From positions 1-49,957 of IMG/VR virus record IMGVR_UViG_3300031569_000008: a stretch of DNA of 49,957 nucleotides; one strand, written 5' to 3'. The stretch's first letter is position 1. Every line of letters starts with the position of its first letter. The notes under the pieces are model-generated. The model searched no databases. It was not told where the DNA came from and worked only from the letters and a program-made list of their open reading frames with translations. Positions 48,056 to 49,957 of the stretch are shown piece by piece. Both the position numbers and the translations under genes were made by a program. Source of the DNA: a virus.

Positions 48056-48074
48056 AATTTATTATTTAATTTAG

Positions 48075-48146
48075 GTGCGCAGGGAGGGTTCGAACCTCCG
48101 ACCTTTGGGATATGAACCCAACGAGCTACCGCTGCTCTACCGCGCA
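48075..48146 (-). tRNA. tRNA with CAU anticodon (Met or Ile2)
   Basis: All four arms fold on the minus strand: a 7-bp acceptor (TGCGCGG with CTGCGCA, one wobble), D-stem GAGC/GCTC, anticodon stem TTGGG/CCCAA with loop TTCATAT (anticodon CAT), and T-stem GGAGG/CCTCC with TTCGAAC. CCA is not encoded, and the base at the discriminator place would be C, which is unusual. The first acceptor pair is T-A, so it is not a typical bacterial initiator. CAU could read Met, or AUA (Ile) if the host lysidine enzyme modifies it. Confidence 0.92.
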
Positions 48147-49812: not shown

Positions 49813-49834
49813 AGTTATTTTATTTTAAGTTTAG

Positions 49835-49912
49835 TGGAGGTGGAGAGATTCGAACTCTCTTCCGCAATAGTTCCATATAGGCTTTCTATCACGTCAATAC
49901 CAAGTCACCCCC
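49835..49912 (-). ncRNA. tmRNA-like tRNA-mimic domain without an mRNA portion
   Basis: A 78-base minus-strand element folds like the tRNA-like domain of tmRNA. Its 5' end GGGGGTGACTTGG and the GACG after it closely resemble the tmRNA 5' consensus, and it pairs with CACCTCC at the 3' end (7 bp, one G-U). The T-arm is GAGAG/CTCTC around TTCGAAT. No D-stem forms, as in tmRNA. A P2-like helix GTGATAG/CTATTGC (two wobbles) is capped by a 15-base loop where tmRNA would carry the tag frame and pseudoknots. CCA is not encoded (CTA). It may be a minimal or degenerate tmRNA, or an odd tRNA. Confidence 0.6.
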
Positions 49913-49957
49913 GTGTGTGCAGTCATGCTCGCTTGATCCTGTTGGTTAAGGCTCGTC

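Follow-up and report, generated by a model that had tools for sequence, protein, structure and literature searches.

The window, meaning the whole stretch of DNA that we analyzed, is a 49,957-base virus record from IMG/VR. Close to its end, on the minus strand, lies an 81-nt RNA (49832-49912; full sequence GGGGGUGACUUGGUAUUGACGUGAUAGAAAGCCUAUAUGGAACUAUUGCGGAAGAGAGUUCGAAUCUCUCCACCUCCACUA) that matches the RF00023 tmRNA model in cmscan with 63.9 bits (E 1e-22), the gathering score of the model being 47 bits. The alignment covers model positions 1-374, with 11 nt in place of 304 consensus positions, and presents a gene that is contiguous in 5'-to-3' order, complete at both ends and devoid of pseudoknots PK1-PK4. 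A tag reading frame, a resume codon and a stop are likewise absent from the RNA, whose P2 loop has only 15 nt. The initial annotation had proposed a stand-alone tmRNA tRNA-like domain (TLD) lacking tag and pseudoknots at 49835-49912; the model score, the fold and the conservation of the RNA bear this out, and those coordinates run exactly from G1 to the discriminator A73. The elements of the locus are as follows:

49832-49912, minus strand: TLD-only tmRNA gene, 81 nt, RNA nucleotide 1 being 49912 (RF00023, fold, about 160 related viral RNAs)
49906-49912, minus strand: acceptor stem 5' strand GGGGGUG, including G3 of G3.U70 (RF00023 alignment; G3.U70 conservation)
49894-49905, minus strand: stem-less D-loop segment ACUUGGUAUUGA with conserved GG (RF00023 alignment; GG conservation)
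49886-49893, minus strand: P2 helix 5' strand CGUGAUAG, 8 bp (fold; covariation)
49871-49885, minus strand: apical segment AAAGCCUAUAUGGAA, 15 nt, an A-rich bulge and a short CC/GG hairpin replacing the tag region and pseudoknots
49863-49870, minus strand: P2 helix 3' strand CUAUUGCG (fold; covariation)
49843-49859, minus strand: T arm GAGAG UUCGAAU CUCUC (RF00023 alignment; C/G swap in close relatives; T-stem covariation)
49836-49842, minus strand: acceptor stem 3' strand CACCUCC, including U70 (RF00023 alignment; conservation)
49835, minus strand: discriminator A73 (A in 65/65 contigs found without constraint on the discriminator)
49835, minus strand: mature 3' end at A73; CCA is not encoded, and the CTA that follows at 49834-49832 would be replaced by CCA
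49913-49957, minus strand: 3' part of RNA module M4, TGTGCAGCGAATAAATAAC...TGACTGCACA (complete in contig L003, 2119-2179)

In RNAfold, the structure of lowest energy for this RNA (-26 kcal/mol, z -2.5 relative to shuffled sequences) is that of the tmRNA tRNA-like domain, with a 7-bp acceptor stem that contains the G3.U70 wobble, no D stem, a T arm, and a P2 helix of 8 bp capped by 15 nt. The parts picked out by the initial annotation, namely the tmRNA 5' signature, the missing D stem, the GCGGA and T arm, and a P2-like helix closed by 15 bases, are all present as described. The RNA thus combines the alanine-acceptor features of tmRNA (7-bp stem, G3.U70, A73) with its structural ones (no D stem, a T arm with a UUCGA loop, a P2 helix) and, as a complete TLD in a phage without tag frame or pseudoknots, corresponds to the DS6A-type definition.

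The RF00005 tRNA model reached 11.7 bits, confined to the T arm, against 63.9 bits for the tmRNA model. With no full tRNA fit, no cloverleaf D stem and no 7-nt anticodon loop, tRNA identity was rejected. A permuted gene was rejected as well, the gene being contiguous and RF04321 giving 29.6 bits in the relative L025, below the cut-off of 47. Neither the rest of the record nor relatives yielded a tmRNA body, and no second tmRNA part reached the cut-off in 26 records. ARAGORN made no call at 49832-49912. Besides the TLD, the analysis turned up a single RNA gene in the window, a tRNA-Met (CAT) on the same strand at 48074-48146.

Nearest copies and conservation

The terminase of the phage is 62.8% identical to that of an uncultured phage and 44% to those of elemo-group Flavobacterium phages, with Cellulophaga and Tenacibaculum phages next; terminase similarity points to a Bacteroidota phage of marine or aquatic origin. 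Four further IMG/VR contigs have the first 21 nt of the TLD RNA unchanged and carry the same RNA; the initial annotation had proposed looking for the short element in related phages. One of these, the 71.5-kb contig L003, represents almost the same phage in the region of the TLD and continues past the end of the window. The sequence 5' of the TLD varies among the four contigs and is shared by two of them, and a search with the downstream 69-aa protein returned four loci only. Close relatives show a C-G to G-C swap in the T stem and a U-G to U-A change in P2, indicating that the helices are maintained.

Across 33 diverse sequences, RNAalifold recovered the acceptor, P2 and T helices, with two-sided changes that kept pairing at 7/7 of the pairs predicted in P2, four in the T stem and one in the acceptor stem. 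It is this covariation that settles the P2 helix, since the single-sequence shuffle test is weak for any one RNA (21/70 individually strong; mean z of 2.3 over the 70). In most sequences, a short hairpin starts 4 nt into the apical loop, after an A-rich stretch; strong hairpins occur in 48% of real apical loops versus 11% of shuffled ones. There is no conserved anticodon in the TLD-only RNAs.

The positions of alanine identity are strictly kept. In scans that imposed neither U70 nor A73, G3.U70 and A73 were each present in 65/65 contigs. The GG of the D loop, the element that forms the tRNA elbow, was found in 78 of the 79 unique sequences among the matches listed from scanning that left it free. 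Relatives with other acceptor stems were found via a neighboring RNA module, and they test alanine identity most sharply. A search whose sole requirements were a fully paired stem starting with GG, then A, and the D-loop GG yielded 37 unique RNAs, of which all 37 had G3.U70 and 36 had A73. The acceptor stems in this clade are GGGGGTG/CACCTCC, GGGCGTG/CACGTCC, GGGAGTG/CACTTCC, GGGTGTG/CACATCC and GGGCATG/CATGTCC, and G3.U70 is also kept in the altered stems of Streptomyces phages BRock (GGGTTTG/CAAATCC) and LuckySocke (GGGTCTG/CAGATCC). Adjacent acceptor pairs therefore turn over, but position 3-70 remains G.U, which is what selection for charging by alanyl-tRNA synthetase (AlaRS) would produce. 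At the sequence level, this conservation argues for function.

Distribution in viral and prokaryote sequences

A first pattern, which described a TLD whose P2 loop is short, matched 25 viral contigs and gave no match in 84,980 prokaryote species genomes. A second, looser pattern did not constrain the discriminator or the 3' strand of the acceptor stem and matched 67 viral contigs, 64 with a complete acceptor stem and at least 4 T-stem pairs and 3 by chance. The same pattern gave 23 matches in the 84,980 species genomes; 22 of these lacked the stems and were chance, and one was real. The latter (L086, 150-231) is a TLD-only RNA in a metagenome-assembled genome labeled "archaeon" (ARS1334), on a contig whose genes look phage-like by inspection only; it is probably a viral contig binned into that genome. 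A third scan, with the D-loop constraint removed, gave at least 120 matches. Combined, the scans gave at least 166 contigs (one being L086) and at least 131 unique sequences. Five doubtful loci (L144, L155, L171, L172 and L193), of which L171 overlaps an apparent tRNA, were dropped from later counts, leaving 161. The layout of the window's RNA thus recurs in at least about 160 viral contigs, and in the collections searched the TLD-only kind is widespread and near-exclusive to viruses. Among the matches listed, the mean length is 81 nt (sd 3.6), and ARAGORN called a tmRNA at 4 of the 166 loci and none at the other 162. Membership in tRNA arrays was rejected, with a tRNA within 1 kb of only 22 of the 161 TLDs among the matches listed.

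TLD-only genes are also present, unannotated, in the isolated Streptomyces phages BRock, LuckySocke, Shaeky and pSt2308. Streptomyces phage Alone3 (L202) has a TLD-like copy with mispaired T stem and P2 that scores below the tmRNA cut-off, and the matching locus in LuckySocke is intact; ongoing loss of the TLD is a possible explanation.

Matches in Caulobacter, Ruegeria and Stenotrophomonas phage isolates proved to be full permuted tmRNAs and were rejected as TLD-only. These lie in Ruegeria phage RpAliso, Caulobacter Bertelyvirus phages and Stenotrophomonas phage Mendera (L203, L205-L207, L210), whose records carry no annotated tmRNA feature. Maribacter phage Panino (PP540027, 27590-27798; L006, 2987-3195), a Bacteroidota phage, has a permuted two-piece tmRNA (RF04321, 62.2 bits); its annotated tmRNA ends overlap two tRNA genes. 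In Tunturiibacter phage Tunturi_4 (PP885687; L208), a permuted tmRNA of 79 bits lies just downstream of a 348-bp gene annotated as a release factor with an RF-1 domain, and the two are a possible phage ribosome-rescue pair.

Variable-arm relatives and upstream RNA modules

The relatives with other acceptor stems make up a second TLD-only type, all with G3.U70, whose P2 arm consists of shuffled hypervariable cassettes (L214, L216-L218, L220, L221, L225, L227-L235, L237-L239 and L244). Between the acceptor stem and the T arm, these RNAs differ widely in both length and sequence, and this hypervariable segment holds hairpin cassettes that are also found in neighboring RNA modules. They remain recognizable to the tmRNA model, most of them at 33-45 bits, with E values as low as 1e-18 but short of the cut-off of 47, and one at 15.5 bits. 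The variable-arm RNAs, which lie outside the window, may be a new variant.

Upstream of the TLD is a noncoding array of structured modules, about 350 nt long in L003 and L025. It is complete in L003 (1828-2180) and L025 (12886-13236), is also found in L212-L244, and is partial in the window (49913-49957). The array combines conserved bases with hypervariable, shuffled hairpin inserts. Besides M4, it comprises M1 (CTAGACGAGTAGCTTAATTAG..ACATAAGTGAATTGCTAG), found in 40 viral contigs; M2 (GCTAGATGA..CTCAGAGGCCGACTCTAG); and M3 (AACTAGGT..GAGGGTTCGATTCCCTC..CTAGTTAC), which carries a tRNA T arm and bears a weak resemblance to tRNA and mascRNA (19.5 and 17.8 bits). None of the upstream modules matched an Rfam family at its cut-off.

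Proposed role and alternative explanations

Established tmRNA biology implies that such a TLD could take alanine and bind EF-Tu and SmpB, templating of a tag being impossible (PMC3985003). A DS6A-like TLD has been reported to inhibit tmRNA strongly, whether chargeable or not (PMC4131195), the host in that work being E. coli (PMC11915505). We searched the phage records for partners. SmpB was found in none of 76 (26 + 50), so host SmpB would be needed. An RF-1/ArfB partner was rejected, as a protein with an RF-1 domain occurs in only 1 of 50 TLD-only records. No tyrosine integrase (PF00589) was found in 16 relatives, and an integrase or att remnant was rejected on this ground and on the completeness of the gene at both ends. 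Because many records are fragments, the absences of SmpB, integrase and a second tmRNA part are provisional.

With moderate confidence, and judging from sequence, we propose that the RNA is a phage-encoded tag-less tmRNA that is charged with alanine via host enzymes and competes with host tmRNA through host SmpB and EF-Tu. We infer a course that runs from transcription through processing, charging, SmpB and EF-Tu binding and ribosome entry to a benefit for the phage. The transcript would be trimmed in the manner of a tRNA and receive CCA from host enzymes, and host AlaRS would charge it with alanine via G3.U70 and A73. Bound by host EF-Tu and host SmpB, the charged TLD would occupy SmpB, and ribosomes stalled by broken mRNA, in place of host tmRNA. 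As it has no tag frame, nascent chains would go untagged for proteolysis, and host trans-translation would be blunted during infection. Among the possibilities raised in the initial annotation, an RNA that may be aminoacylated and interfere with host ribosome rescue is the best supported.

The strict conservation of G3.U70 leads us to favor a charged state for the competing RNA, and the inhibition reported for the DS6A-like TLD leads us to favor competition with host tmRNA. Titration of SmpB alone needs no charging, so the strict G3.U70 points to a charged role, which may be rescue and not inhibition. It could also be that G3.U70 is kept for processing or stability instead. The much longer variable P2 segments of some relatives are not obviously needed by a pure decoy.

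Of the alternatives, a rescue function without a tag fares best, and we consider it unlikely. Here the alanyl-TLD, with SmpB and EF-Tu, would enter stalled ribosomes, add one alanine and aid recycling with a hydrolase such as ArfB, thereby sparing phage proteins from degradation instead of blocking host tmRNA. The strict conservation of alanine identity implies a charged, working molecule, some mitochondria keep tag-less tmRNAs along with SmpB (PMC11915505), and the RF-1-domain gene of Tunturi_4 adjoins a tmRNA, albeit a full, permuted one. However, the scarcity of RF-1-domain proteins (1/50 TLD-only records), the lack of a stop codon for ribosome release in a TLD alone and the inhibition reported for the DS6A-like TLD (PMC4131195) speak against it.

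More doubtful still is a decoy for host defenses that sense tmRNA or tRNA-like RNA, such as CoCoNuT systems, which have SmpB-like domains, or RNases with tRNA or tmRNA as their target. Binding of tmRNA is predicted for the SmpB-like OB folds of CoCoNuTs (PMC11090510), and the hypervariability and shuffling of the neighboring RNA modules in the clade are what an arms race would look like; yet no defense system was linked to these phages in this analysis, and what is conserved in the core serves charging and the elbow.

We give somewhat less credence again to an atypical tRNA whose anticodon loop is expanded, also raised in the initial annotation, or to a mascRNA-like processing signal that merely releases upstream RNA ends. 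The TLD does directly follow other structured RNA modules, from which RNase P would separate it. Against both, the tRNA model stops at 11.7 bits, there is neither a D stem nor a conserved anticodon, and contexts vary (a tRNA within 1 kb for only 22/161 among the matches listed); a pure processing signal, moreover, would not need G3.U70.

An attachment-site scar, the last of the initial annotation's suggestions, or a decaying tmRNA pseudogene is highly improbable: tmRNA genes are common integration sites (PMC11915505), but both halves of this one are complete, all helices show compensatory changes, length is conserved (mean 81 nt, sd 3.6, among the matches listed), the layout is the same in very diverged sequences and 16 relatives have no tyrosine integrase.

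More broadly, and more tentatively than the competition model, the TLD-only RNAs might be a widespread virus-specific family that is alanine-charged and hijacks or blocks trans-translation, and that in one marine clade serves as a chassis for exchangeable hypervariable P2 cassettes; we hold the odds of this to be slightly short of even. Nearly all bacteria rescue ribosomes with tmRNA, and trans-translation is an antibiotic target. If our reading is true, a large, conserved viral set of tag-less tmRNAs would make interference with trans-translation a common phage strategy, and these RNAs would be natural inhibitors of an antibiotic-target pathway. The unannotated genes in isolated Streptomyces phages make the question testable in laboratory strains.

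Comparison with known systems

Mao et al. reportedly described a TLD-only tmRNA from phage DS6A in 2009. This Mycobacterium phage RNA (tmID 11587; PMC4131195) is, compared by description, like ours a phage gene with little beyond the tRNA-like domain of tmRNA and no tag frame. In contrast to it, the present RNAs occur in marine Bacteroidota-type and many other phages, have a conserved apical hairpin and include variants with hypervariable P2 arms. With standard ssrA (RF00023) they share the G3.U70 acceptor stem, stem-less D loop, P2, GGA-T-arm and A73, but not the tag frame, resume codon or pseudoknots, and they measure 81 nt versus about 370. The CDS-less tmRNAs of mitochondria and two plastids also lack a tag, but they are organellar, the mitochondrial ones usually permuted and the plastid ones about 65 bp (PMC11915505). 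In the TLD-SmpB crystal structure PDB 2CZJ, tmRNA 5' and 3' parts are joined by a short P2 loop; it is nearly the same construct, although a laboratory one from T. thermophilus with a UUCG cap (PMC3985003).

Phages Wildcat, Bxz1, G and Melnitz encode full-length or two-piece relatives of ssrA that keep the tag part, and the surveys of such genes relied on ARAGORN (PMC4131195, PMC9004378). Only nine of the 97,179 sequences in the tmRNA database are "standard, no CDS" (PMC11915505). TLD-only RNAs have been overlooked because ARAGORN does not call them. We found no description of exchangeable hypervariable cassettes on a TLD P2 arm. The tag-less kind is already known from phage DS6A, mitochondria and two plastids; what is new here is its abundance, its presence in new phage clades, the conserved apical hairpin and the hypervariable P2 arms of the relatives.
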